Positions 3,043 to 59,417 of a stretch of 59,417 bases of DNA are shown here, in pieces. The notes under the pieces are model-generated. The model worked only from the letters and a program-made list of their open reading frames with translations. It was not told the origin of the DNA and ran no database searches. Both the position numbers and the translations under genes were made by a program. Position 1 is the first letter of the stretch, and each line of letters starts with the position of its first letter. Source of the stretch: Granulosicoccus sp. (GTDB lineage: Bacteria; Pseudomonadota; Gammaproteobacteria; Granulosicoccales; Granulosicoccaceae); contig JALZWO010000091.1 of assembly GCA_023300375.1 (NCBI GenBank), positions 1 to 59,417 of the forward strand. The letters are read 5' to 3'.

Positions 3043-4379
3043 TGGCTAGAGAATTTTTCGGAACTGACGGTATTCGTGGTCGTGTGGGTCAATACCCTAT
3101 GACGGCGCAAGTTGTCATGAAATTGGGTTGGGCTGCGGGTAAGGTGCTTGCTTCCAAAGGCAACCGTGAAGTGCTGATCGGAAAAGACACGCGTATTTCA
3201 GGTTATCTTTTTGAGTCGGCACTAGAGGCTGGTCTTGCATCTGCGGGTATCAATAGTCGCATGTTAGGGCCCATGCCGACGCCAGCTGTTGCGTATCTGA
3301 CAAGTACATTTCGTGCGGCTGCGGGTATTGTCATCAGTGCATCGCACAATCCTTATCATGACAATGGGCTGAAATTTTTCTCAACCGATGGCACTAAGCT
3401 ACCGGATGATGTTGAGCTTGAAATTGAAGCGATGATGCGGCAAGACATGACTACCGTGGATTCTGCTGATTTGGGTCGCGCTCGACGTGTGGATGATGCT
3501 GCAGGCAGATACATTGAATTTTGTAAAAGCACCTTTCCGTCAACATTGCGTCTGGACGGCATGAAAATCGTCGTCGATGCCGCCAATGGTGCGGGATACC
3601 ATATCGCTCGTGAGGTGTTTGACGAGCTGGGAGCTAACGTTATCTCCGTGGGTGCTGATCCTAATGGGCTGAACATTAACAAAGAATGTGGTGCCACTGC
3701 GCCTGACAATTTGCGTGCACATGTACTGCTTGAGCGAGCTGACCTCGGCATTGCGCTCGATGGTGACGGAGATCGACTGATCATGGTCGACCATCGTGGT
3801 GAGATTGTAGATGGCGACGAAATCATTTACGTACTGGCCAAGGCGCGTCATGCAAACGGCACGCTGAAGGGTGGAGTAGTAGGCACTCTGATGACCAATC
3901 TAGCGTTAGAGCACGCGTTCAATGACATGGACGTGCCCTTCGAACGAGCGGGCGTAGGTGACAGATATGTCATGGAGCTCCTAAAGGCCCGAGGGTGGGA
4001 GTTGGGGGGAGAAAATTCCGGGCATGTGATTTGTCTAGATAAGGTCACTACTGGCGATGCCATAGTGGCTGCGCTGTCTGTTCTGGCTGTTATGCGCGAG
4101 ACTGGAGAGTCATTGTCCAAGTTACGTGCTGGCATGCAGCTGTATCCGCAGGTTCTACTCAATGTCCCAGTCAAAGACAAGGTGAATCTAGATGAGAATC
4201 AACCCATCCAAGATGCGTTGACAAAGGCTGAAAAAGATCTTGGCGGCAGTGGTCGCGTGTTATTACGGGCCTCCGGTACAGAGCCTTTGGTTCGAGTCAT
4301 GGTTGAAGGTAAGGTGGCTAATGACGTGCAAAGAATTTGTCAACAGGTCGCCAATGTGGTGAGAGAGGCGATAGATTAG
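3042..4379 (+). CDS. glmM: Phosphoglucosamine mutase
   Basis: Interconverts glucosamine-6-phosphate and glucosamine-1-phosphate, feeding UDP-GlcNAc for peptidoglycan and lipopolysaccharide. The N-terminus FGTDGIRG is the family hallmark. The phosphoserine loop SASHNP contains the catalytic Ser101, the metal loop DGDGDR follows around residues 241-246, and the sugar loop GENSGH is present; the C-terminal phosphate-binding RASGTEP is intact. 445 aa is the standard length. The ATG shares its first base with the folP stop codon, which supports this start and co-translation. Confidence 0.98.
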
Positions 4380-47630: not shown

Positions 47631-48458
47631 ATGAATAACGATTCAACGTCCCATGAATCTACCGTGTCCTCTCGCACAGTGAGTGTCGGGCTTTTTGTGA
47701 CCTGTCTGGTAGACCTTCATCGTCCGAATGTGGGCTTCGCTTCTATTAAATTACTTGAGCAGGTGGGTTGTGTCGTGAGCGTCCCGCAAATTCAAACCTG
47801 CTGTGGGCAACCTGCATACAACAGTGGTGATGATAAAACGTCGCGACAAATTGCCATGCAAACCATCAATGCATTTGCCGGTTTTGACTATGTGGTTGTG
47901 CCGTCAGGGTCTTGTGCTGGAATGCTCATTGAGCACTACCCTGAGTTATTTAAGGATGATGAGGCTGAGTTTGCAAAAGCTACCGAATTTGCCAGTCGCT
48001 GTCACGAGCTACTCAGCTTTCTGGTTGATGTTCGAGGAATGACTGACTTTGAATCAAAGTTTGATAGTAGCGTGACCTACCACGACAGCTGCAGCGGTCT
48101 GCGTGAGTTGGGAATAAAAGATCAACCGCGCGCATTAATGCAATCGGTGCAGGGACTCAAGCTTAACGAGATGAAAGACACCGATGTGTGTTGTGGCTTC
48201 GGTGGCACTTTCTGCGTTAAGTACCCTGATATTTCTGAGCGCATGGTCAGTGACAAAGCAGCGCTGGCTGTGCAGAGCGGCGCCGATACATTGTTAGGCG
48301 GAGATATGGGGTGTTTGTTAAATATCAGTGGCAGGTTAAGTCGTTTGCAGCAACCTATGCGGGTTTACCATGTGGCAGAAGTGCTCGCCAATATGGCAGA
48401 TGGTCCAGCCATTGGTGAAGGTAAACCCGTAGATCAATCTACTGCAAGTGAAGGGTAA
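47631..48458 (+). CDS. lutA: L-lactate utilisation iron-sulfur protein LutA
   Basis: First protein of the LutABC L-lactate dehydrogenase complex. Two CCG-type domains are visible: FVTCLVDLHRPNVG, QTCCGQPAYNSGDD, then SGSCAGML, TYHDSCSGLRELG, and DVCCGFGGTFCVKYP, supplying the cysteines for cluster binding. 275 aa with about 16 extra Ser/Thr-rich residues at the N-terminus. lutB follows after 6 nt. No lactate permease or lut regulator is visible next to it. Confidence 0.94.
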   Translation: MNNDSTSHESTVSSRTVSVGLFVTCLVDLHRPNVGFASIKLLEQVGCVVSVPQIQTCCGQPAYNSGDDKTSRQIAMQTINAFAGFDYVVVPSGSCAGMLIEHYPELFKDDEAEFAKATEFASRCHELLSFLVDVRGMTDFESKFDSSVTYHDSCSGLRELGIKDQPRALMQSVQGLKLNEMKDTDVCCGFGGTFCVKYPDISERMVSDKAALAVQSGADTLLGGDMGCLLNISGRLSRLQQPMRVYHVAEVLANMADGPAIGEGKPVDQSTASEG

Positions 48459-48464
48459 TCGACC

Positions 48465-49922
48465 ATGCAATCACAATCGCATAGCTTCAAACTCAATGCA
48501 CGTGAGGCGCTTCTCGATGACAACCTCAAGCAAGCGTTAAGTAATGTGAAAGGGGGCTTTATTGGAAAGCGAGCTGCTGCTGTCGCTCTTGTTCCTGAAT
48601 GGCAGCAGATAAAGAATGAGGCTCGTGAATTAAAAAACCATGTACTGGAAAATCTTGATCACTACTTGCTCGCTTATGAAAGTAAAGTGCAGTCAGCGGG
48701 TGGTCACGTTCATTGGGCGCAAACCTCGGAAGATGCCAACGCGATCATTGTTGATATTTGCAAGCAGGTCAACGCTAAAACAGTCACCAAAGGCAAGTCG
48801 ATGGTGAGTGAAGAGGCCAGTCTTAATGCTGCAATCGAAAAAGCTGGCATAGAAACTATCGAAACAGACTTGGGCGAGTACATTATTCAGTTGGCAAAGG
48901 AGGCACCGAGCCACATCATCGCGCCTGCCATTCATAAAACGCGGGAACAAGTCTCCGACTTATTTCATGAGCATCACGCGCAGTATGGTTTGCATGAGCG
49001 ATTGGTTGATCGTAAGGCCTTGGTTAATGAAGCCAGGTCCGTGTTACGAGAAAAATTCCGTGCTGCTGATGTGGGTATTACAGGTGCGAATTTTCTTATT
49101 GCTGAAACCGGTCAGCACGTGTTGGTCACCAATGAAGGCAATGGTGACTTGACGTCCAATTTGCCACGAGTGCAAATCGTGATTGTTGGCATTGAGAAGG
49201 TCATTCCTACACTTGAAGACGCGAGTTGTTTGTTGCGATTATTGGCGCGTAGTGCCACCGGACAAACTTTTTCTAACTACACGAGCCTCATGAGCGGTCC
49301 TGCTAGAGCAGATGATCTTGAGGGGCCAGAGCAGTTTCATGTTGTGTTGGTAGATAATCACCGAAGCGACATGCTGGCAGGGGAGCTACGGGAAATGCTT
49401 CGCTGTTTTCGCTGTGGTGCTTGTTTGAACCATTGCCCAGTGTACGGCGCGATTGGAGGGCACGCATACGGATGGGTTTACCCAGGGCCCATGGGGTCGG
49501 TGGTCACGCCTGCCATGATTGGAATTGAAAATGCACCTGATTTGCCGCATGCCTGCACCCTCAATGGTCGCTGTGCAGAAGTATGTCCTATGAGCATCCC
49601 GTTACCAAAATTGTTGCGTGAACACCGGCGTCAGACATTCCTTAAAGCGTTGCAATCGCCGAGCGCTCGCTATGGTTTAGGTCTGTGGGCGTTTGTGGCA
49701 AAACGTCCGGCTATATACCAACGGCTGACATCAATAGGTGTTGCATTGTTATCCCGATTCGGTGGCAAAAGTGGCCGCTATCGACGATTGCTGCTGGCTG
49801 GCGGTTGGACCCAAAGCCGAGATTTACCAGCGCCACAAGGGCCCTCAACCTTCATGCAGCAGTATCGAAAGTCTGATCATTTCGCAACAAACGGTGAACA
49901 AGCGGAGCGCACAAAAAAATGA
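48465..49922 (+). CDS. lutB: L-lactate utilisation protein LutB
   Basis: Iron-sulfur subunit of LutABC. An N-terminal LUD domain (GKSMVSEEASLNAAIEKAGIE, TGANFLIAETGQHVLVTNEGNG, cited in part) is followed by two ferredoxin-type motifs: FRCGACLNHCPVYG and CTLNGRCAEVCPMSIPLPKLL. 485 aa. Its stop overlaps the lutC start by 4 bases (ATGA), so the two are translationally coupled. Confidence 0.95.
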   Translation: MQSQSHSFKLNAREALLDDNLKQALSNVKGGFIGKRAAAVALVPEWQQIKNEARELKNHVLENLDHYLLAYESKVQSAGGHVHWAQTSEDANAIIVDICKQVNAKTVTKGKSMVSEEASLNAAIEKAGIETIETDLGEYIIQLAKEAPSHIIAPAIHKTREQVSDLFHEHHAQYGLHERLVDRKALVNEARSVLREKFRAADVGITGANFLIAETGQHVLVTNEGNGDLTSNLPRVQIVIVGIEKVIPTLEDASCLLRLLARSATGQTFSNYTSLMSGPARADDLEGPEQFHVVLVDNHRSDMLAGELREMLRCFRCGACLNHCPVYGAIGGHAYGWVYPGPMGSVVTPAMIGIENAPDLPHACTLNGRCAEVCPMSIPLPKLLREHRRQTFLKALQSPSARYGLGLWAFVAKRPAIYQRLTSIGVALLSRFGGKSGRYRRLLLAGGWTQSRDLPAPQGPSTFMQQYRKSDHFATNGEQAERTKK

Positions 49923-50584
49923 GTTCACGCGATGAAGTATTGGCAAAAGTGGCCGCCGCGCTGGGTCGCGATTCCTCAGTTGCAACATTGACACTAGCTG
50001 ACCAGCCGCCGGAGGTGACGCAACGTTTGCAAGCAGCGCATCGACATACACTGCCAGGTGTTGGAAACGATCTGCTCGAAGCGCTAACCCATGCAATGGA
50101 GTCGGTGGCGATGAGTGTGGTCAGATTGCAGTCGATGAGTGATGTTGTCAGTGCGGTTGAATGGTATCTTGAGTCTGAAAATCTGGATGCGGGGTCTCGT
50201 GGCGATGTTACGGTTGCTCCGGCACTGGCAGCACTTGAGTGGCCTGAGCACTATGCATCTGGAAAGGCTACCGGTGTTGAAAAGGTCAGTATTACGTCGT
50301 GCCTTGCAGCTGTTGCCGAGACGGGTAGTGTGGTAACAGCCAGTAACCAGGCAACGCCTGCAACACTTAATTTTTTGCCAGAAACTCATATTGTTGTGCT
50401 GCGAGAATCACAAGTTAAGCGACACGTTGACGATGTATTTCCCTTACTGCGTGAACTGGATATATTGCCGCGCGCAGTGAACTTCATTACAGGCCCCTCT
50501 CGTACCGCAGATATCGAACAAACTTTAGAGATAGGTGCCCATGGACCACGACGTATGCATGTATTGTTGCTCGCCGGTGAATAA
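49919..50584 (+). CDS. lutC: L-lactate utilisation protein LutC
   Basis: LUD-domain subunit of LutABC. Family segments visible: ITSCLAAVAETGSVV, HIVVLRESQVKRHVDDVFPLL, and the C-terminal FITGPSRTADIEQTLEIGAHGPRR, cited in part. 221 aa. Overlaps lutB by 4 bases; a HAD phosphatase gene begins 6 nt after its stop and is probably cotranscribed. Confidence 0.94.
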   Translation: MSSRDEVLAKVAAALGRDSSVATLTLADQPPEVTQRLQAAHRHTLPGVGNDLLEALTHAMESVAMSVVRLQSMSDVVSAVEWYLESENLDAGSRGDVTVAPALAALEWPEHYASGKATGVEKVSITSCLAAVAETGSVVTASNQATPATLNFLPETHIVVLRESQVKRHVDDVFPLLRELDILPRAVNFITGPSRTADIEQTLEIGAHGPRRMHVLLLAGE

Positions 50585-50590
50585 TTTGTC

Positions 50591-51304
50591 ATGAAAGCTG
50601 ATACCAAAGCCGATCTGAGCGTCATTAAAGTATTGTCGTTTGATCTTGACGATACGTTCTGGGATTGCGCGCCAGCTATTGATAATGCCGAGCGTGCTTT
50701 ATACGCATGGTTCGAGCAAGTTACGCCAAAGATTGCATCAGCGCATAGTCCTGCATCGTTGGAGCAGTTTCGGGCGGAAGTGCGAGTTCGGCATGTTGCA
50801 CTTCAAGGTTGTGTTACTGCAATGCGCCGACAGGGCCTTAAAGAATTACTGGTGCACTATGACTACCCTGAAGAATGGGTTGATGAGGCATTCGATGTGT
50901 TCTATCGAGCGCGCAGCGAGGTGCAACTGTACCCATTGGTTCATGATTTGTTGCAAATGACGAAGGAGCGTTTTCAGGTGGCTGCCATCACTAACGGTAA
51001 TGCAAGCCTTGAGCAGATTGGCATATCTGGGTATTTTGATAAAGTATATGCGGCTGATCTGGAATTAAAAGCCAAGCCACATAGCGATATGTTCGATCGT
51101 TGTTGTTCGCATTTCGGCGTTAGTGCTCATCAGGTGCTACACATCGGAGACAATGCGGTAACCGATGTCCAGGGAGGATTGCAAGCCGGAATGCAAACAT
51201 TGTGGTTCAATCAGGCAGGTGAGCCTTGGCCACATACCCCCCCAGGACCCCATTTTGAAGCTCGCAATATTGATGAACTTCTCAAATTATTGTCGAATGG
51301 GTAG
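50591..51304 (+). CDS. HAD-superfamily phosphatase, YigB-like
   Basis: Haloacid dehalogenase fold phosphatase with a helical cap. Motif I FDLDDTFWD with nucleophile Asp18 and acid Asp20, motif II AAITNGNASL, motif III Lys in LKAKPHSDMF, motif IV HIGDNAVTDVQGG. 237 aa. Closest in appearance to YigB/YjjG-type FMN or nucleotide phosphatases; the exact substrate cannot be told. It begins 6 nt after lutC. Confidence 0.88.
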   Translation: MKADTKADLSVIKVLSFDLDDTFWDCAPAIDNAERALYAWFEQVTPKIASAHSPASLEQFRAEVRVRHVALQGCVTAMRRQGLKELLVHYDYPEEWVDEAFDVFYRARSEVQLYPLVHDLLQMTKERFQVAAITNGNASLEQIGISGYFDKVYAADLELKAKPHSDMFDRCCSHFGVSAHQVLHIGDNAVTDVQGGLQAGMQTLWFNQAGEPWPHTPPGPHFEARNIDELLKLLSNG

Positions 51305-51476
51305 GGTTAAGAACATTTTCTGCTCCGCGATACCAAACGTCACAGTAGTTTTGTAGAATTCTTGACTTTAAACCCAGTGAATCGGCGTAAAATGGTGAGT
51401 AGTCCTGAAGCGGGAGTGAGAATTTCCAATTCAGCGACGTATGACTTCTGTTAGCTTGTTTTTCGGATCCCAAACG

Positions 51477-52334
51477 ATGAGTCGAACCTTCTACGTCAAC
51501 GGTGAATTTGTTGCCGAAGAGAATGCCACCATATCTGTACTCGACAGAGGCTTTTTGTTCGCCGATGCAGTGTACGAGGTCTCTACCGTGCTCGACGGTA
51601 AACTGATTGATAATAAAGCCCACCTGAAAAGACTGGCTAGATCATTGTCAGAGCTGTCAATGGCGCCGCCGTGCTCTGACGAAAAAATTCTTGAAGCGCA
51701 GCTTAAACTACTTGACCTGAATTCAGTGTCAGAGGGCTTGCTTTACCTCCAGGTTTCGCGTGGAGTGGCCGATCGCGACTTTGCCTACCCTAAGGACGCA
51801 CGTTCGTCTTTAGTGATGTTCACTCAGGAAAAAAATCTGATTAATTCGCCTTTGGCAGAAACTGGAATGCATGTCATCTCTATTCCTGATTTGCGATGGA
51901 AGCGGCGAGACATCAAAACCGTTGGCTTACTTGCGCCTAGTATGGGCAAACAAGCCGCTGTGGACGCTGGTGTACACGATGCTTGGATGGTTGAGGACGG
52001 CTTGGTTACTGAGGGTACCTCCAATAATGCATACATCGTTACAGCAGACAAAAAAATTCAGACCCGCCATTTGGGTACCGAAATACTCAGTGGTATAACC
52101 CGGCAAGCCGTGTTGAGTTTTGCGCGCAAGGCGGGTTACACAGTTTTAGAGGAACCTTTCACTATTGAGCAGGCCAAACAGGCACAAGAGGCGTTCATTA
52201 CCAGTGCTTCAACGTTTGTTATGCCGGTCGTTAACATTGATGGTGTGGCGCTGGGTGATGGTAACCCGGGCCCTGTATCCAAAGAATTGCGAAAGACCTA
52301 CATCGAAATGGCTCTGGCACACCAGGATTTGTAA
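51477..52334 (+). CDS. D-amino-acid transaminase (class IV aminotransferase)
   Basis: PLP enzyme of fold type IV, most like D-alanine aminotransferase, which supplies D-Glu/D-Ala for peptidoglycan or degrades D-amino acids. Visible: FYVNGEFV, SVLDRGFLFADAVYEV at the start, the probable PLP lysine Lys147 in RRDIKTVGLL, EGTSNNAYIV (PLP phosphate site), and TEILSGITRQAV. ATG at 51477 is preferred because the family begins there; the frame is open to an earlier ATG at 51441 that adds 12 residues. 285 aa. A TTGACT at 51362-51367 with TAAAAT 20 bp later is a weak promoter candidate. Confidence 0.92.
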   Translation: MSRTFYVNGEFVAEENATISVLDRGFLFADAVYEVSTVLDGKLIDNKAHLKRLARSLSELSMAPPCSDEKILEAQLKLLDLNSVSEGLLYLQVSRGVADRDFAYPKDARSSLVMFTQEKNLINSPLAETGMHVISIPDLRWKRRDIKTVGLLAPSMGKQAAVDAGVHDAWMVEDGLVTEGTSNNAYIVTADKKIQTRHLGTEILSGITRQAVLSFARKAGYTVLEEPFTIEQAKQAQEAFITSASTFVMPVVNIDGVALGDGNPGPVSKELRKTYIEMALAHQDL

Positions 52335-52385: not shown

Positions 52386-54656
52386 ATGACGTTGCTTAAG
52401 CTTTTACAGCTGAACTTTGCGGGCAAAAAATTGACGTGCATTGCTGCCTGCCTGCTTATCGCAGCCTGTAGCTCAGGCGGCGGTGACTCTGGCGTGGTAT
52501 CTTCAGATGCTGACACCGGCTCTGACACCGGCTCTGACACCGGCTCTGACACCGGCTCTGGCTCCGGCACCGGCTCTGGCTCTGACACCGGTACTGGTAG
52601 CAACGACAACGATTCGTCGACGGATCCCATGATTCCGGTAGGCGACTCAACGCCGAATTCAACGGCCACTCAAGGTCAATTTGAGGACAGTGGTAACGAA
52701 GCGCGTCTAGGTTTCTCCATCGCAGAAGATTCGGCGCTCACTGGTGCTTTTGCAAGCCCGAGCTCAGAGCAAGCGCGTGCCGATTCGCCTACGAATGCTG
52801 GGCCAGACGTAAACTTCAACCAATTCACCATTTTATCGCCGCCAACGTTTGGTTTTTTACAGATAAATCCGGACGGCACGGCATTTAGCTACGAGCCAAA
52901 CGTTAATTACACAGGTGTTGATGTTTTCTCCTATGAAACGTCAGCTGGGCGTGAGGTGGTGGTTAATATCAACATTTCTCCAGTACCTGACGCACCTGTG
53001 TTCAGTCGAGATATTACGCCCATAGCGAATCAGGGTAGACGGTACCAAGTGCAGCTTCAAGGTTTTGACGCCGATGGAGACTCTCTAACATTCACAGCTG
53101 AAAATTTACCAGACTGGCTGGTGCTTGATGGTGCTAGTGGCATATTGACAGGTGTTCCCGGACAAGCCGACGTGGGTAGTGTTGAAGGTATCCGTTTGTC
53201 AGTCGTAGACAGTACTGGTCTTAGCGATGTTATCGAAGAACTTGAACTTGAAGTTGTCGATATTAACGACGTGCCAATACTAAACCTCACTCAGGCGCCA
53301 CGTGAATTGTTTGGACGTCAACTGACTAATTTCAATGTGTTTCCACGCGATATCGAAAACGATTCTGTTGAAGTGTCGGTTGAGCCTAATGAGCTTCTGA
53401 GAACCACAGTTAACGGCAGTCAGATAAATATCGAAGTTGCCGATGTCGAGAATGCACAGACCACTACCCTCACGATTGTTGCCCGAGATGATCGTGGCGC
53501 GGTTACCCGGGAGTCGATTTCCATCGCTCTTTTCCCGCGCACCGAATCCAACAAAGGGACAACATTGTTAGGCCATAAACAAGGGCGTGGTGTGCATATC
53601 GTCATTCTTGGGGACGGGTACTCCAGTGACGAGTTGCCTACTTATCGACAGCATGTGGATTCGGTGCTTGATAATATTCAATCCGATTCAGGGATTGCAG
53701 AGCATGTCGGTGCTCTCAATATCCATATGATAGAGGTGGTGTCCCAGCAGTCGGGTGCAGACGATAGTGACAGCGATGACCGAGTGACTACCGCTTTTGA
53801 TAGCGCCTATAACTGTCGTGCAATTCCTCGACTGATTTGCGCAGATATTTTGAAGCTGTTCGAGGCATCTCTCGCTGAATATCCCGACGTAGATCAGATC
53901 ATTTTATTAGTAAACGACAGTCGCTACGGTGGCAGCGGTAACAGCGGCGGCCGCGTTGCCATTACGTCAGCGTTCTTTCCCGAAATTGCATTGCATGAAA
54001 TGGGGCATAGCCTTGCCGATCTAGCTGATGAATACGTTGATCCACTGATTCTTGATGTCAGCGGTGTCTTGCCTTTTGAGGAAGGGCGGTTTAAGAATGT
54101 GTCCAACTTGTCTGATCCGACACAGGTGCCTTGGGCTCACTGGCTTGATTTCCAAAGCTCTCTGCCGCCGAGCGCAGGCGGTTTAGGTGTGGGTGTCTTC
54201 GAGGGCGGGTATTACCGCTCAACAGGGGTTTATCGCTCATCGGTGAGCAACCGTATGCGTGACTACAATTCCGATTTCGGTCCGGTTAATACAGAGCAAT
54301 GGATACTGCGCTTATACACGCTAACTGAGGGCATTCGGTCGCTGTCCCCGGAAGAACTAGTACTTGATGCCGTTGCAGGTGACGTTCTGCCTTTCAATGT
54401 TGAGCCGATATTTGGCGATGCCGTTCAAAGGATCGTCTGGACGCTGAACGGTCAGACATTGAATTTTCAAGACGACGCCGTGAATGTGGGTACCTTGTCC
54501 GTGGTTGCGACTGACAATTTGCATTCTCTCAATTTGGCGTTGCCACCCGGTCAGCATCGACTCTCAGTGACTATCAGCGATGTGAGTGGTCGAATTCAAA
54601 TACCGCTGCCGCACGCCGGAATATTCACAAGGCAATGGGATATCAACGCGCTATGA
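52386..54656 (+). CDS. M64-family metallopeptidase lipoprotein
   Basis: Predicted outer-membrane or surface lipoprotein: signal peptide with lipobox LIAAC, lipidation Cys28 followed by Ser. A flexible Asp/Gly/Ser/Thr linker (about 43-75) follows, then two beta-sandwich-like segments (cadherin-like NPDGTAFSYEPNVNYTGVDVFSY; Ig-like FDADGDSLTFTAENLPDWL, cited in part), then a peptidase domain from about residue 400. The zinc site is HEMGHSLADLADEY with His537, Glu538, His541 and probable third ligand Asp548, the pattern of IgA-peptidase family M64. 756 aa. The stop overlaps the next gene by 4 bases. Substrate unknown. Confidence 0.85.
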   Translation: MTLLKLLQLNFAGKKLTCIAACLLIAACSSGGGDSGVVSSDADTGSDTGSDTGSDTGSGSGTGSGSDTGTGSNDNDSSTDPMIPVGDSTPNSTATQGQFEDSGNEARLGFSIAEDSALTGAFASPSSEQARADSPTNAGPDVNFNQFTILSPPTFGFLQINPDGTAFSYEPNVNYTGVDVFSYETSAGREVVVNINISPVPDAPVFSRDITPIANQGRRYQVQLQGFDADGDSLTFTAENLPDWLVLDGASGILTGVPGQADVGSVEGIRLSVVDSTGLSDVIEELELEVVDINDVPILNLTQAPRELFGRQLTNFNVFPRDIENDSVEVSVEPNELLRTTVNGSQINIEVADVENAQTTTLTIVARDDRGAVTRESISIALFPRTESNKGTTLLGHKQGRGVHIVILGDGYSSDELPTYRQHVDSVLDNIQSDSGIAEHVGALNIHMIEVVSQQSGADDSDSDDRVTTAFDSAYNCRAIPRLICADILKLFEASLAEYPDVDQIILLVNDSRYGGSGNSGGRVAITSAFFPEIALHEMGHSLADLADEYVDPLILDVSGVLPFEEGRFKNVSNLSDPTQVPWAHWLDFQSSLPPSAGGLGVGVFEGGYYRSTGVYRSSVSNRMRDYNSDFGPVNTEQWILRLYTLTEGIRSLSPEELVLDAVAGDVLPFNVEPIFGDAVQRIVWTLNGQTLNFQDDAVNVGTLSVVATDNLHSLNLALPPGQHRLSVTISDVSGRIQIPLPHAGIFTRQWDINAL
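52512..52559 (+). repeat. 12-bp tandem repeat in the M64 lipoprotein linker
   Basis: Four exact copies of GACACCGGCTCT, each encoding DTGS, followed by degenerate copies to about 52597. Perfect copies point to recent expansion or slippage; each gain or loss keeps the frame and changes the length of the surface linker. Confidence 0.9.
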
Positions 54657-55126
54657 AGCGACTTGCACTTATTTTTTGGGCAGTGATAGCATTTTCTAGT
54701 TACTCAACATTCGCTAACGATGGGCAGCCAAGCGAACAGCGGGTGTTGCTCAGTTTCGATAACTCGGGGCACCATGTGCGCCAAATAATTCATAGTGAAG
54801 CGCAAGTCTTACAGGCAGAGCCCACGCCTTTACTTGAAACAGAGCTTAACTATTTACAGGCGGCCGTTGCTGATCTGGTTCCCGGGCAGGCTATGCTTTT
54901 GTGGCAGGATGATGAAGGGGGCTGGTATCCGAGGTCACAGGTTCCTGATCCTCGCGTCTCTCATGCGCCTGCACACATTTTTGGTGCGGAGAATTCACAA
55001 GTGGGTGATGTATCTGGTGCGTGGCTGGTTTCAGGGTCGGGCAGAGCGAGTAGGTTAATTATCTTACTGCCACGCAACACGGCACTTGGACTCGCTTTTG
55101 AACAATGGGATGTTGCTTTGAATTAA
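54653..55126 (+). CDS. Small exported protein coupled to the M64 peptidase
   Basis: 157 aa with a clear signal peptide (MKRLALIFWAVIAF, probable cleavage after STFA). The mature part has no family I recognise: an N-terminal beta-like stretch RVLLSFDNSGHHVRQI, a helix, then VPGQAMLLWQDDEGGWY and a C-terminal RLIILLPRN. ATG at 54653 is preferred because it overlaps the peptidase stop as ATGA; ATG 54635 would add six residues before the signal peptide. Coupling suggests a partner, inhibitor or chaperone of the peptidase (inference). Confidence 0.75.
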   Translation: MKRLALIFWAVIAFSSYSTFANDGQPSEQRVLLSFDNSGHHVRQIIHSEAQVLQAEPTPLLETELNYLQAAVADLVPGQAMLLWQDDEGGWYPRSQVPDPRVSHAPAHIFGAENSQVGDVSGAWLVSGSGRASRLIILLPRNTALGLAFEQWDVALN

Positions 55127-55150
55127 AACGGCCTGAGAGTGAGATATATT

Positions 55151-55166
55151 GCGGTGTTTTTACCGC
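55151..55166 (+). terminator. Small hairpin after the M64 unit
   Basis: GCGGT-GTTTTT-ACCGC followed by TATTCAATTT; a weak terminator candidate in the 211-bp gap before the TolA-like gene. Nothing else is seen in the gap. Confidence 0.35.
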
Positions 55167-55337
55167 TATTCAATTTAAGTTGTTTTTGTTGGCATTTTTA
55201 AGCAAGTTTGATGTTAAAACAACCGAAAACCGTTGGAGTGTCACATTGTCTACGATTCGGTGTAAGGCAATTACGGTAACATACCGCTCTAGCAGACTTG
55301 CTTCGACTCGCAGGGACGACGGTAGCCAATAAAAAGT

Positions 55338-57293
55338 ATGCATATAGCACCTGACAAATATAAGGCTGAGGACGCGGATTCCGATTTCGATTTTTTGAAG
55401 TCAGACGAGCCACGTGCAGACCAATCATCTGACTCTGATGAAGAGAGTGCTCGAAGCAGTGGCACTCGAAGAACACGCTCGACCAAAGCAAAGTCAGCAG
55501 ACAGGCCATTCCCCAAAATAAGGAAGCCGGTACCGGTTACAGAATCTGGGGCAATTCGTGCTCCAAAAGCCGGTGATCCAGTGGCTCCACCCCCTCCGCT
55601 AACAGATGGGATAAAGCCAAGCTCGAATGTCACAACCCCAAGCCACGTGCGAAGGGATCCCGTTGATTTTGAGAAGATCGATCTAGGCCTGGACGAGGAT
55701 GATTGGCCCAGTAGCGATCAATGGGCGGATCGGGCAGGTCGCCCCATGCCCAATCTTCATGAAGAAGACCGGCAAAGCCCCTTGCGCAAATTTGGCTATT
55801 CTTTGGGTGTTGTGCTCATGATCGCTGGTGTAGGCACAGCGCTATACAGGGTTCCGGTGGTAAAGCAATGGTTTGGAAGCGTGTCTCCGGTCAGTTTGCC
55901 CAGTAGTGCGGCAGATGTGCCATTCGAGCCAATTCCCCTAGATCCAATACTCGAGGAGTCAGTTGCAGACTCCCTGTTCCAGCGTTATCAAACGGAGTTG
56001 GAGGCCTTCGAAACAATGCTGGCTCGTCAGGAATTCGATGAGGCGTCATTGCGTCTACAGAGCATGGACAGAACCCTCTACGGGTACGGAAAACCAGAGT
56101 TTGATCTGATAGCACAACAAATTGCCAAGGGCCCAGCTTCACCTGAAGAGCTCGCTGCACAAGCAGCGGAACTTGCCGCAGTAGAGCAAGCAGCAGCCGA
56201 TCAAGCTGCATTTGATCAGGCAGCAGAAGAGCGAAGCGCGGCAGAACTGGCAGCGTTAGAACAAGCCGCAGCAGAACAGGCGGCGCTAGAGCAGCAGGCA
56301 GCAGCAGAGCGAGCTGCAGCAGAACAAGCCGCGTTAGAGCAACAGGCAGCAGCAGAGCGAGCTGCAGCAGAACAAGCCGCGTTAGAGCAGCAGGCAGCAG
56401 CAGAGCGAGCTGCAGCAGAACAAGCCGCGTCAGAGCAGCAGGCCGCAGCAGAGCTAGCTGCAGCAGAACAGGCAGCATTCGAACAGGAAGCAGCCGCGGA
56501 ACTAGCCAGAATTGAGCAGGTGGCTTTAGAAAAGCAAGAGGCAGCTTCCGCTGAGCAACGCAGGTTGGACCGTATTTCTCAGGATCGTGCTCGTGAGGAG
56601 CAGTTGGAGGTCGCCCGTAGACAGCGACTTGAACAGGAGCAACGTTTGCAGCAATCAGCCCAACAAGCAGCGGCTGCCGCGGCATATCAGCCAAGCGAAT
56701 TGCCAGCTGCAGCGCAGACACTGCCAGAGCAATCGCAGACAGTGCAAAACATTGCTGCGGCTCAACGAGCAGCGGCTCGTGAGCAACGCCTTGATGAAGC
56801 AAGAGAGAGAGATGATTCAAGCATCAGCCAACCATCGCTCGCAGTATCACCCGCAGTATCACCCGCAGTAATACCTGAAGCATCACCTGCAGATACGGTT
56901 GTGGCGCGGGTGGAAATCCCTGGCGTACCCGTTGTAGAAAGGTCTGTTTCGCCAAGGTCCATTTCTGACGTTGAGTTGCAGCAAGTTTACAGTTCGTTTA
57001 CTCAGCTGGTCGGGCTCATAGAAAGACGTGACATCAGCGCAATGATTGATTCAACTCAAATGTCTGGGCTTCGAGTTCAGCAGTTCTTACAGTTATTTGA
57101 AAATAACGTGAGTATTGAAGCTAAGCTGCGAAATGTTTCTACATTGGATGCTTCTGGGGAAATCCAGGGCATATTGCAGGTCACTCGTCTGGTGCGCGCT
57201 GATGGCTCGGTCACTGGTCCTCCGTTCAATTTATCATCGGTGCAACTTTCCGCTGTGAGGGAAGGTAACGGTTGGTCGGCGATTCGCTGGTAG
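55338..57293 (+). CDS. Single-pass membrane protein of TolA-like architecture
   Basis: 651 aa, no recognised family. Residues 1-150 are cytoplasmic, disordered, acidic then Pro-rich (PVAPPPPLTD). One membrane helix (about 153-170, FGYSLGVVLMIAGVGTALY) has no cleavage site, so the rest faces the periplasm. About 185-260 is helical; about 265-480 is an Ala/Glu/Gln-rich coiled coil containing four 16-residue repeats (AALEQQAAAERAAAEQ); 480-545 is a Pro/Val linker; the last ~105 residues form a compact domain (VELQQVYSSFTQLVGLIERR ... GNGWSAIRW) resembling NTF2/SnoaL-like folds by pattern only. This recalls TolA/TonB, which span the periplasm. Its own ribosome site is weak. The next two genes are close and likely cotranscribed. 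Confidence 0.7.
   Translation: MHIAPDKYKAEDADSDFDFLKSDEPRADQSSDSDEESARSSGTRRTRSTKAKSADRPFPKIRKPVPVTESGAIRAPKAGDPVAPPPPLTDGIKPSSNVTTPSHVRRDPVDFEKIDLGLDEDDWPSSDQWADRAGRPMPNLHEEDRQSPLRKFGYSLGVVLMIAGVGTALYRVPVVKQWFGSVSPVSLPSSAADVPFEPIPLDPILEESVADSLFQRYQTELEAFETMLARQEFDEASLRLQSMDRTLYGYGKPEFDLIAQQIAKGPASPEELAAQAAELAAVEQAAADQAAFDQAAEERSAAELAALEQAAAEQAALEQQAAAERAAAEQAALEQQAAAERAAAEQAALEQQAAAERAAAEQAASEQQAAAELAAAEQAAFEQEAAAELARIEQVALEKQEAASAEQRRLDRISQDRAREEQLEVARRQRLEQEQRLQQSAQQAAAAAAYQPSELPAAAQTLPEQSQTVQNIAAAQRAAAREQRLDEARERDDSSISQPSLAVSPAVSPAVIPEASPADTVVARVEIPGVPVVERSVSPRSISDVELQQVYSSFTQLVGLIERRDISAMIDSTQMSGLRVQQFLQLFENNVSIEAKLRNVSTLDASGEIQGILQVTRLVRADGSVTGPPFNLSSVQLSAVREGNGWSAIRW
56283..56474 (+). 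repeat. 48-bp tandem repeats encoding a 16-residue helical unit
   Basis: Four head-to-tail units (56283-56330, 56331-56378, 56379-56426, 56427-56474). Units 1-3 are nearly identical at DNA level, unit 4 diverged. Each encodes AALEQQAAAERAAAEQ or a variant. In-frame gain or loss would lengthen or shorten the predicted periplasmic rod. Confidence 0.9.
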
Positions 57294-57310
57294 ATCAAAG
57301 AGTAAATTTC

Positions 57311-57985
57311 ATGAAGTTACAAGTTCTAAGACATTGGGTGGCATACTCAGTTTCTTTGTGTCAGGTCCTGCTGTCCTGTTCGGTATTCCTATCTGTACCT
57401 GTTTACTCTCAAACACTAGATACAGAACCTCCTGAGGTTGGTCTCGATGGTGTTGGTGAAGCCCGTAAAGGTGATTCGCAAGTATTCACAGTATCGGCTA
57501 CTGACGATAGTGAGATTTCTGACCTTACGGTGTTTTTCCGGCAAGGCACAACAGGTGAATTTGAAAGCGCTCAGATGATGCGCATAGGTAACACCGACCT
57601 TTTTACTTACACATTAAGAGCCGAGTCGATAGCCCCCAGTACCGATGTCATTCAATATTATTTTGATGCACGAGACGCCGCTGGAAATCGAACCTTGCAA
57701 GGTTTCTCCTTTGATCCATTGGAGCGAACGCTTATAGATGGTGGTTCAATTCAGGCCGAAAGCAGCCCACCCTCTAGCTCGCAGAGCGACAAGTCAACCT
57801 CGGTGCTCGGTTCCTTGAGTACCACCCAAAAAGTGGTATACGGAGCGGTGGCGCTCGTGGTGGTAGGCGCTTTGATAGCGGTTGCTTCCTCTTCAGGTGG
57901 TGTTTCAGGGGGTGCGGGCAATAACCCCGGTGATGAGTTCACTCCAGTCACCATTGTTAGTGATCCTTTGGTGCCAGGTTTATGA
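57311..57985 (+). CDS. Exported Ig-like protein with C-terminal membrane anchor
   Basis: 224 aa. N-terminal hydrophobic signal (about 12-33, ending VPVYSQ), then a beta-sandwich region (about 38-140) with TEPPEVGLDGVGEARKGD, SATDDSEISDLTVFFR and YYFDARDAAGNRT, as in bacterial Ig-like modules. A Ser-rich linker leads to a second hydrophobic helix (about 177-195, YGAVALVVVGALIAVA) and a short Gly-rich tail. No known family beyond Ig-like. ATG at 57311 (MKLQVLRHW) is preferred over the open frame from 57272, which overlaps the previous gene. Its stop overlaps the next start (ATGA). Confidence 0.72.
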   Translation: MKLQVLRHWVAYSVSLCQVLLSCSVFLSVPVYSQTLDTEPPEVGLDGVGEARKGDSQVFTVSATDDSEISDLTVFFRQGTTGEFESAQMMRIGNTDLFTYTLRAESIAPSTDVIQYYFDARDAAGNRTLQGFSFDPLERTLIDGGSIQAESSPPSSSQSDKSTSVLGSLSTTQKVVYGAVALVVVGALIAVASSSGGVSGGAGNNPGDEFTPVTIVSDPLVPGL

Positions 57986-59417
57986 ATTTTCTATCTCGAA
58001 AAGCGCTCTGCAAGGCGCGAAATCCGCGCACAAGATTTCAGGGTCTAGCAGGAATAGCCTTAGCGGCGCTTGCTTTAAGTGCCTGTGATTCTGGCGTTAA
58101 CTCAGGGCAAATTGATGTCCTAGACGGGAATGCGGGTGTGGCCTTCACAGCGCCATTGTCCATGCTGAGTTCTCGTAACATAGCCAGCTCCAACTTGTTT
58201 CTACGCATTGTCATCGATGGAAATTCCATTGGATCTGTGTCTACCGATATTCAGGCAGATAGCAACGGCGAGTATATCTTTTCAACAAGTTTGCCTTCTA
58301 ACACCCAATTGAGTGTTTCATTGGCCTGGATAGAATTGATTAATGGCGAAGAGCTGTTGTTAGCCACTTCCGAAAAACCCCTGTTTGTTGGATCTGCCGA
58401 CAGCCCTGCGCAGCTGAGTTTCTTGGAGGAGGAGTACAACACATCAATAGATCTTGATCAGGACGGTACATCCAACCTTACCGAGCGCCTTACCGGCGCC
58501 GGAACAGGTTTTAATAACCCCGACGATCCTGTTGAGCGTCCAGTACTTGTCGATCTCAACGTTGAATTTAATTTACCTGAGTTGCTTGAAACTGCTTCGG
58601 ATGATGTTCGCAACAGGATTGTTGCGTTCGGTTTAGTCAATGGCGCAGTCATTAACTTAACGCGTAACGGGGATGTTTGGAACGGCATTACGCAAGTGTT
58701 TAACAACACAGAACCGTTAGTCAGAGTGCAATTTTTCGCAAGCTCTGAAAGAAATATTCTGCTAGCTGACCGCTCACGCAATTTTGAAATTGGCAACGGC
58801 GGCACCTTCGTGTTTGAGGCTGAAGATTACCTAGAAGAAGAGCTGGATGCCCTGAACAACGATAGTGATGAGTTTAATAACGCTGAAGAGATAGTCAACG
58901 AAACTGACCCAGCAGACGAGTTATCCCCTGATTTTGATGGAGATGGACTGTCGTTTGAAGCAGACAATTGTTCAATGGTGTCTAACCCTGATCAGGAAGA
59001 CATAGATGGCGATGGCATCGGTGATGTGTGTGACCCAATCAACGACAACGATACTGACGGCGATGGATTTGACAATGATGTTGATAACTGTCCGACTGTA
59101 GATAATCCTGGTCAGGAAGACATTGATGGAGATGGCGCTGGTGATGCGTGCGATAACTTCAATAACAACGATACCGATGGAGACGGCATTAATAATGTCG
59201 TTGACAACTGTCCAGATAATGCTAATTCCGATCAGTCAGATTTAGATAATGATGGCGTGGGTGATGTATGTGATGCCACACCTAATGGGAATCCGATAGA
59301 GCCAACGCCGGAGCCGACACCAGAGCCAACGCCGGAGCCAACGCCAGAGCCAACGCCAGAGCCAACGCCAGAGCCAACGCCAGAGCCAACGCCAGAGCCA
59401 ACGCCAGAGCCAACGCC
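57982..59417 (+). CDS. Thrombospondin type-3 repeat lipoprotein, truncated by window end
   Basis: Open from ATG 57982 to the last base (478 complete codons, no stop). Signal peptide with lipobox LSAC and Cys35, followed by Asp at +2, which in E. coli would favour inner-membrane retention. About 40-300: a beta-rich domain of no recognised family (FLRIVIDGNSIGSVSTDIQA). About 300-433: Asp/Asn calcium-binding repeats of thrombospondin type-3 style (DGDGIGDVCD, DGDGAGDACD, DNDGVGDVCD with NC..V.NP/Q spacers). From residue 440: EPTP repeats running off the window. The ATGA overlap couples it to the Ig-like gene. Probably calcium-stiffened envelope or surface protein with a Pro-rich spacer; what follows the spacer is outside the window. 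Confidence 0.85.
   Translation, partial: MNFLSRKALCKARNPRTRFQGLAGIALAALALSACDSGVNSGQIDVLDGNAGVAFTAPLSMLSSRNIASSNLFLRIVIDGNSIGSVSTDIQADSNGEYIFSTSLPSNTQLSVSLAWIELINGEELLLATSEKPLFVGSADSPAQLSFLEEEYNTSIDLDQDGTSNLTERLTGAGTGFNNPDDPVERPVLVDLNVEFNLPELLETASDDVRNRIVAFGLVNGAVINLTRNGDVWNGITQVFNNTEPLVRVQFFASSERNILLADRSRNFEIGNGGTFVFEAEDYLEEELDALNNDSDEFNNAEEIVNETDPADELSPDFDGDGLSFEADNCSMVSNPDQEDIDGDGIGDVCDPINDNDTDGDGFDNDVDNCPTVDNPGQEDIDGDGAGDACDNFNNNDTDGDGINNVVDNCPDNANSDQSDLDNDGVGDVCDATPNGNPIEPTPEPTPEPTPEPTPEPTPEPTPEPTPEPTPEPTPEPT
59299..59417 (+). repeat. 12-bp tandem repeat GAGCCAACGCCA at the window end
   Basis: About ten copies of a 12-bp unit encoding EPTP, the last six or so identical, continuing past the window edge. 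The array is in frame within the thrombospondin-repeat lipoprotein and likely varies in length among strains. Confidence 0.9.

Follow-up and report, generated by a model that had tools for sequence, protein, structure and literature searches.

A rod, Ig-like and TSP3 lipoprotein gene triad of Granulosicoccus as a candidate branch of a modular envelope system

The last three genes in a 59,417-nucleotide stretch of DNA from the marine bacterium Granulosicoccus sp. (hereafter the window; GenBank assembly GCA_023300375.1, contig JALZWO010000091.1) encode a membrane protein with a long rod, an Ig-like membrane protein and a lipoprotein with TSP3 repeats. We see roughly an even chance that they represent a branch of an unnamed modular envelope system in which a rod stands in place of a kinase, and that they serve mainly as a tether rather than as a receptor kinase. 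We place them in such a branch because the C-terminal domain of the rod also ends kinases, caspase-domain proteins, transporters and secreted proteins that are often encoded beside the same partners. The open-access literature searched yielded no description of the triad.

The window is the entire contig C91 (1-59417) of a 4.58-Mb assembly in 247 contigs (here and below, G, C and L numbers denote genomes, contigs and loci). Five open reading frames (ORFs) on the + strand at its right end encode, in order, an M64 lipoprotein, a small exported protein, the rod, the Ig-like protein and the TSP3 lipoprotein (Table 1). A first-pass annotation, made from the letters alone, had described five consecutive exported or membrane proteins with two ATGA couplings, and had suggested an undescribed trans-envelope or surface adhesion/degradation apparatus. 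All five frames are present, with the overlaps at 54653-54656 (M64 stop and ATG of the small gene) and 57982-57985 (Ig stop and lipoprotein start). The observation is thus confirmed and its interpretation partly supported, given that a trans-envelope system of an unnamed kind fits, whereas adhesion or degradation we can only infer. What goes beyond that annotation is the kinship of the rod's C-terminal domain with the ends of receptor kinases, caspase-domain proteins and PF03458 transporters, which are frequently encoded next to the same partners.

Conservation of the triad

The order of the three genes recurs in relatives. The Ig gene stands directly after the rod gene in all 23 rod loci counted, and the lipoprotein gene follows in 22 of them; rods broken by contig ends (G024:C66, G037:C113, G038:C40, G041:C265 and G042:C214) were excluded. 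The C-terminal domains of the rods form one clade (22 rows, support 96/95), and so do the rod-linked Ig proteins (23 rows, support 100/95). Conserved co-occurrence of the last three genes, which the first-pass annotation had proposed to look for, is therefore borne out. Matches that carry a name are without exception Granulosicoccus or Granulosicoccaceae (18 of 18 loci). One rod locus from another genus (L072, G015:C85) nests within the Granulosicoccus rod clade, either through transfer or as a misbinned contig.

The surroundings of the rod loci, mapped with our own profiles only, are conserved as well. Of the 17 loci whose upstream sequence reaches 5 kb or more, all have the HAD and Dat genes, 16 the M64 gene and 15 the small exported gene. 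Downstream, an exported gene nicknamed PsbP-like occurs in 15 of the 15 loci with at least 3.6 kb of sequence and at least one GH16 gene in 14 of these (the exception ends early), and a barrel protein is found in 12 of 12 loci with at least 7 kb.

Unconnected neighbouring genes would be compatible with the 211-bp gap before the rod gene and with promoter- and terminator-like sites at the level of shuffled sequences. We give this explanation almost no credence, since the order recurs in 23 rod loci and since, over 369 genomes, the Ig family and the C-terminal domain, found in 18 genomes each, share 16. Chance clustering is thus already contradicted for the rod, Ig and lipoprotein genes; the HAD, Dat, downstream exported protein, barrel and GH16 genes may be unconnected neighbours.

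The rod and its C-terminal domain

The rod protein begins with about 156 residues of polar, low-complexity sequence, a predicted cytoplasmic tail with an FDFL motif. The pattern F-[DN]-F-L lies near the N-terminus in 18 of the 18 rods in which this end is readable. The label 'acidic tail' was dropped, as the 156 residues hold 30 D/E against 25 K/R. Some 364 residues lie between the membrane and the C-terminal domain (248-486 in 18 rods), 68% of them A, E, Q, R, K or L. The rod matches nothing in Pfam or NCBIfam, its C-terminal domain has no Pfam family, and the Pfam scan matched no family in the Ig-like or the small exported protein either. A protein kinase domain is absent from the window rod according to Pfam.

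The first-pass annotation had called the rod TolA-shaped, and the outline holds: like TolA, it has one transmembrane (TM) helix, an Ala-rich rod and a C-terminal domain. The likeness does not go beyond shape: no TolA model matches the rod, and a separate tolQ-tolR-tolA-tolB-pal operon lies elsewhere in the genome, on which ground we reject TolA identity. The true TolA lies between tolR and tolB (L205 3191-4990) and reaches 69.7 bits with TIGR02794 (cut-off 59.45); whole-genome family searches missed it although this model matches the protein, and these false negatives were not used as evidence. A TolA- or TonB-type energised protein, as the N-terminal part with one TM helix, the Ala-rich rod and the small C-terminal domain might suggest by shape, is very improbable and already contradicted: neither TolA nor TonB models match, and the C-terminal domain has a different, NTF2-like fold.

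This fold is indicated by an AF2 model (58 rows, 135 aa) with a pLDDT of 89 and block means of 95-98 from residue 31. VIA-align superposes it on a ketosteroid-isomerase-like protein (Z 10.6, rmsd 2.7, 104 aligned), on the N-terminal domain of Enterococcus faecium penicillin-binding protein 5 (Z 9.8) and on Helicobacter Csd6 (Z 9.0). Foldseek finds NTF2-like folds at E 1.5e-4, and CaMKII-type chains are also in its list. A sequence comparison with the PDB gave nothing credible. The CaMKII association domain (PF08332), which is likewise an NTF2-like fold placed C-terminal to a kinase with a linker, weakly matches one of 58 domain members (E 0.0046). The domain described here differs in that it is predicted from topology to be periplasmic, and the sequence match is negligible.

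Exchange of output domains

The N-terminal parts joined to the NTF2-like domain are exchanged among its members. A paralogue of 699 aa in the same genome (C100, L067 9379-11478) combines a Ser/Thr kinase domain (PF00069, 4.4e-37) with a membrane segment, a linker and the NTF2-like domain. A kinase profile is found in 26 of the 63 annotated ORFs with the domain (17 of 50 in Granulosicoccaceae and 9 of 13 outside). Because nine of the 13 distant domain proteins are kinases, the simplest reading is that a kinase was the ancestral output; the deep branches of the tree, which like the alignment covers 58 of the 63 ORFs, are poorly resolved. Four ORFs carry a caspase domain instead (L142, L167, L175 and L178), and the caspase proteins start with an export-like segment. 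A multi-pass transporter (PF03458, confirmed by Pfam in five of five) ends in the domain at L120, L122, L149, L150 and L151, and three further loci encode a short secreted protein that is little beyond the NTF2-like domain, followed by Ig and lipoprotein genes.

Several of these loci have features of their own. At the five transporter loci the Ig gene is on the opposite strand. A caspase-NTF2-like fusion lies beside an Ig gene and a CBM9-type lipoprotein gene at L210:1-2758, with a DUF4384 protein further along; the description 'surface-fibre genes' was dropped there, given that Pfam on the two proteins tried returned DUF4384 and nothing. Four distant loci (L162, L168, L169 and L181) have, next to the lipoprotein or Ig gene, an exported protein whose N-termini look alike by eye (G...N-x-N-F type).

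The partners co-occur well beyond the rod loci. The Ig-like protein is present in 48 of 48 genomes of Granulosicoccaceae, often in several copies (132 of 134 places were tallied, the other two being small second fragments of genes in the tally). Copies not linked to a rod usually neighbour a lipoprotein of the same family, and often a protein ending in the rod's C-terminal domain. A lipoprotein gene is directly downstream of 70 of the 96 Ig ORFs analysed within the family and of 9 of 20 outside it, and a lipoprotein (within 2.5 kb) or an NTF2-domain gene (within 3.5 kb) is near 91 of 96 and 18 of 20, respectively. Viewed from the domain, 69 of 109 places in the family have an Ig gene no more than 6 kb away, and 51 are directly upstream of it on the same strand. 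Lipoproteins within the family often end in CBM9, which is found on 43 of the 58 outside rod loci.

Across 369 genomes drawn from the class Gammaproteobacteria, the overlap described above corresponds to a hypergeometric probability of 6e-24; without the four genomes of the own family, Ig and domain occur in 14 genomes each of 365 and share 12 (8e-19). A search for the domain in 398 genomes drawn from the phylum gave a match in the own genome only. Because this draw and the class draw (18 of 369) differ, the wider spread is unsettled. Distances among Ig proteins and among their linked domains are correlated, with a mirror-tree r of 0.81 for all 60 pairs (shuffled maximum 0.15), 0.74 for the rods and 0.83 for the kinases, each above all 500 shuffles and with a contribution from shared species history that was not removed.

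The kinship with kinases also allows a signalling role, which we consider possible and rather unlikely. The rod would then act as a pseudo-receptor, its NTF2-like domain joining the one on a separate kinase, the lipoprotein and Ig protein would report surface contact, and the FDFL tail would scaffold the kinase or be phosphorylated. Such a kinase is encoded elsewhere in the genome (C100, L067), and G020 likewise has both a rod and a separate NTF2-domain kinase (L206). NTF2-like folds often dimerise, which would suit this role, as would the weak CaMKII match, and an F-[DN]-F-L pattern in every readable rod is what would be expected of a docking motif. However, the locus has no kinase, its M64 and GH16 neighbourhood points outward, and the rod domains and their Ig partners form their own clades, which suggests separate complexes.

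A role in anti-phage defence was rejected, as PADLOC gave no families for the rod, Ig, lipoprotein and M64 proteins. Among the paralogues, the kinase at L067 matches 34 PADLOC models (best mad6, 2.3e-50, over the kinase region) and the caspase at L142 one caspase model (9.9e-8), matches that we read as probably reflecting shared enzyme domains.

The Ig-like protein and the TSP3 lipoprotein

The Ig-like protein consists of a signal peptide, one Ig domain, a C-terminal hydrophobic helix, an acidic tail and a final short hydrophobic strand-like motif. Its family profile matches the IgSF domain of Porphyromonas gingivalis peptidylarginine deiminase (PDB 5ak8, E 4e-8), so that the 'Ig anchor' of the first-pass annotation was right as a fold; Pfam Ig models matched, weakly, only one of 25 family members. 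The Ig fold is common to both proteins, whereas here it sits on a membrane protein without an enzyme domain.

The last gene had been read as a TSP3 lipoprotein with a Pro-rich spacer. Its TSP_3 repeats score 78.8 bits (PF02412, cut-off 25), a Pro-Glu-Thr repeat follows them, and the lipobox is LSAC. The 281 residues after the lipid Cys (58087-58929) are modelled by AF2 as two beta-sandwiches (pLDDT 88), for which no sequence match was found in the PDB. C2-like and CBM20-like assignments of these sandwiches were set aside, as Z values of about 8 are within the range of common arrangements and not decisive, and we claim no function from them. TSP3_bac (Pfam) is present in 16 of the 28 lipoprotein regions scanned. 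MtsC, a myxobacterial TSP3 cell-cell cohesion protein (NF047638), aligns over the repeats at residues 288-392 with 87.8 bits, far below the 350-bit cut-off and confined to the repeat region; no paper on MtsC was found in the open-access literature searched.

Continuation past the contig end and the surface enzymes

The lipoprotein gene ends at 59417 because the contig ends there, inside the Pro-Glu repeat, and it is thus cut by the assembly. When the gene that adjoins the locus in a close relative was used as query against the same genome, one end of contig C47 (L201) was found. The terminal bases there, read on the minus strand, encode the last part of a Thr/Glu/Pro-repeat protein up to its stop codon. 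After it come an exported protein, a convergent GH16 (GH16a), a probable outer-membrane barrel, a second GH16 (GH16b), acpS and pdxJ. Because the repeat is present at both ends and the order is syntenic, C47 probably continues the TSP3 lipoprotein gene; unbroken relatives (for example G020, L053; G026, L056; G045, L055) show the same order. The extension past 59417 that the first-pass annotation had called for thus has a probable answer.

The name PsbP-like for the exported protein is a nickname only, given that the match in a relative reaches 12.6 bits (cut-off 23.5) and that the own copy has no Pfam match. The barrel candidate ends in Tyr-Tyr-Tyr, with an outer-membrane-barrel match below threshold. 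GH16a (PF00722, 9.6e-23) has the catalytic ExDxxE motif, reading DPEIDIMEY, and keeps it in 16 of 16 relatives. GH16b (L201:5593-6579) lacks it, the own copy reading PQVYIMEH and 0 of 11 relatives having the motif, and the two may be an active/inactive pair. The best match of GH16a is the EglC endo-beta-glycanase, below the EglC cut-off, and the GH16 genes in the cluster are at most putative laminarinases. At the other end of the locus, the M64 peptidase recognised by the first-pass annotation is well supported: Peptidase_M64 scores 97 bits (cut-off 26, 1.5e-27), He_PIG and Big_9 are also above their cut-offs, and the protein carries HEMGHSLADLADEY, the HExxH motif as HEMGH, and a lipobox-like N-terminus.

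These enzymes raise the alternative that this is a locus for processing matrix or polysaccharides, in which the rod and Ig proteins would be export or assembly factors for the surface lipoproteins (M64, TSP3, GH16s) rather than a tether. The constancy of the exported protein (15 of 15) and the barrel (12 of 12), the catalytic and non-catalytic GH16 pair and the sub-threshold proximity of GH16a to EglC are consistent with it. We regard it as improbable, given that loci both paralogous and distant have the Ig, NTF2-like and lipoprotein genes but not the enzymes.

Proposed function

For the tether reading preferred here, the most likely function, at about even chances, would be a calcium-dependent complex for surface attachment or degradation that is tethered to the inner membrane. 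Sequence and synteny define the core of the system as a protein ending in an NTF2-like domain that is periplasmic by topology, a single-helix Ig-like membrane protein and a lipoprotein; the core lipoproteins carry DxDxDG motifs and, at the N-terminus, one or two beta-sandwiches. The Granulosicoccus version has the polar FDFL tail and the long Ala/Glu/Gln-rich rod in place of an output domain, and its triad lies within a conserved cluster that also holds the M64 lipoprotein, the intact GH16, the motif-less GH16, the probable barrel and the exported protein. The rod, anchored in the inner membrane, could cross the wall and span the periplasm. There its NTF2-like end, which may form oligomers like the CaMKII hub, would hold the Ig protein and the lipoprotein at its base through mutual binding. 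A Pro-Glu stalk would let the lipoprotein present its TSP3 repeats, stiffened by calcium, at the surface and bind glycan or a neighbouring cell there in a calcium-dependent manner, while the M64 peptidase and the active GH16 may trim the surface or matrix.

A broader version, which we put forward tentatively and rate somewhat below even, is an effector-swapping trans-envelope platform. A periplasmic NTF2-like dock, the Ig protein and a glycan- or calcium-binding lipoprotein would make up a common platform for sensing or attachment, to which a Ser/Thr kinase, a PF03458 transporter, a caspase-like protease, a rod or no output at all has been added. In Granulosicoccus, which is associated with algae, the rod and polar tail would have made a structural surface tether out of a receptor and linked it to a protease and to glycanases.

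Several observations weigh against the proposed tether. The Ig helix (window 57833-57985 and homologues) has on average 2.0 K/R before it and 0.43 after it in 113 proteins, where an acidic tail ending in a short hydrophobic motif follows. The positive-inside rule would predict the reverse for a helix with its N-terminus outside; because the positive charges are on the side expected to face the periplasm, the topology of this helix is uncertain. The window lipoprotein has Asp after the lipid Cys (+2), and over the 22 rod-locus lipoproteins this residue is D in 6, E in 6, N in 5, S in 3, H in 1 and unparsed in 1 (D by eye); under the enterobacterial rule, Asp at +2 suggests retention in the inner membrane. 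The lipoprotein is absent from one of 23 rod loci (G025), three rod loci of genus g4 have no lipoprotein match in the profile map, M64 is absent from one of 17, and the TSP3 pattern is missing from 6 of the 22 rod-locus lipoproteins, one of which is cut. TSP3 and M64 are therefore not essential, and the genes downstream (exported protein, GH16s, barrel) may lie nearby without taking part in the same function. Neither partner is near 5 of 96 family Ig ORFs and 2 of 20 outside, and 40 of 109 domain places, including lone Granulosicoccus kinases, have no Ig gene within 6 kb, some of these being at contig ends. The CBM9 profile was found on 0 of 14 lipoprotein matches outside the family.

Among known systems, transmembrane Hanks-type Ser/Thr kinases with extracytoplasmic domains come close, as the rod's paralogues are such kinases and share its C-terminal domain and partner genes; PknS of Xanthomonas citri is an example (PMC13147305). 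The window rod differs from them in lacking the kinase domain, and has the polar tail instead and surface enzymes as neighbours. PASTA kinases are another example of Hanks-type kinases with extracytoplasmic domains. In the threonine phosphorylation pathway TagQRST-PpkA of the type VI secretion system (T6SS), a membrane kinase likewise works with envelope partners that include an outer-membrane lipoprotein. In the distant genome G249 (L212:6663-13967), an NTF2-domain kinase adjoins T6SS FHA, TssJ and TssK genes; no T6SS gene was noticed in the gene lists of the rod loci, which were not scanned with T6SS models.

From the perspective of envelope biology, three families that have no Pfam name of their own (the NTF2-like domain, the Ig-like protein and the lipoprotein beta-sandwich) are inherited together in some Gammaproteobacteria. 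Should they build a single platform, this would explain in general terms how contact at the surface of these bacteria is passed on to varied outputs inside, with the rod branch as a case of a receptor kinase converted into a mechanical tether. In a kelp-surface metagenome study (PMC9238374), Granulosicoccus, the genus in which the rod form is conserved, was the most abundant assembled genome. The rod branch would allow the attachment of a dominant epiphyte to kelp to be tested one gene at a time.

Gene borders and neighbouring genes

The five genes may be on more than one transcript, given that the 211-bp gap separates the small exported gene from the rod gene. Transcription units cannot be drawn either, because promoter-like and terminator-like sites are no more frequent at the locus than in shuffled sequences. 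Coordinates and start choices are given in Table 1.

Table 1. Features of the rod locus and its surroundings (window positions unless a contig is named)
Feature	Coordinates	Strand	Length	Basis and remarks
HAD hydrolase	50591..51304	+		PF00702; conserved upstream neighbour, probably context
Class IV aminotransferase (Dat-like)	51441..52334	+		PF01063; conserved upstream neighbour, probably context rather than part
M64-family metallopeptidase, predicted lipoprotein	52386..54656	+	756 aa	PF09471; N-terminal Ig/cadherin-like domains He_PIG and Big_9
Small exported protein	54653..55126	+	157 aa	From the ATG overlapping the M64 stop; ORF lister start 54635
Rod protein	55338..57293	+	651 aa	Polar tail, one TM helix, A/E/Q-rich rod, NTF2-like C-terminal domain
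Rod TM segment	55806..55862	+	aa 157-175	Hydropathy
Ala/Glu/Gln-rich periplasmic rod	55863..56954	+		Composition; presumably helical or coiled-coil
NTF2-like C-terminal domain	56955..57290	+	last 110 residues	AF2 and VIA-align; shared with kinase, caspase and transporter proteins
Ig-like protein	57311..57985	+		Likely ATG start, 17 bp after the rod; lister start TTG 57272
TSP3 lipoprotein	57982..59417	+	478 aa, no stop	Lipobox LSAC, Cys at 58084-58086
Probable C-terminal end of TSP3 lipoprotein	contig C47, L201 10912-10962	-		

Two further observations concern genes outside the locus. Upstream of the HAD gene, three genes at window 47631-50584 resemble the Lut lactate-utilisation trio (a CCG domain, a LUD domain with Fe-S, and a LUD domain). 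On contig C105 of the same genome (L066:1-612, 3365-3865), another TSP3 lipoprotein and a protein with Glu-Pro repeats that is TonB-like by eye are present and unrelated to the locus.

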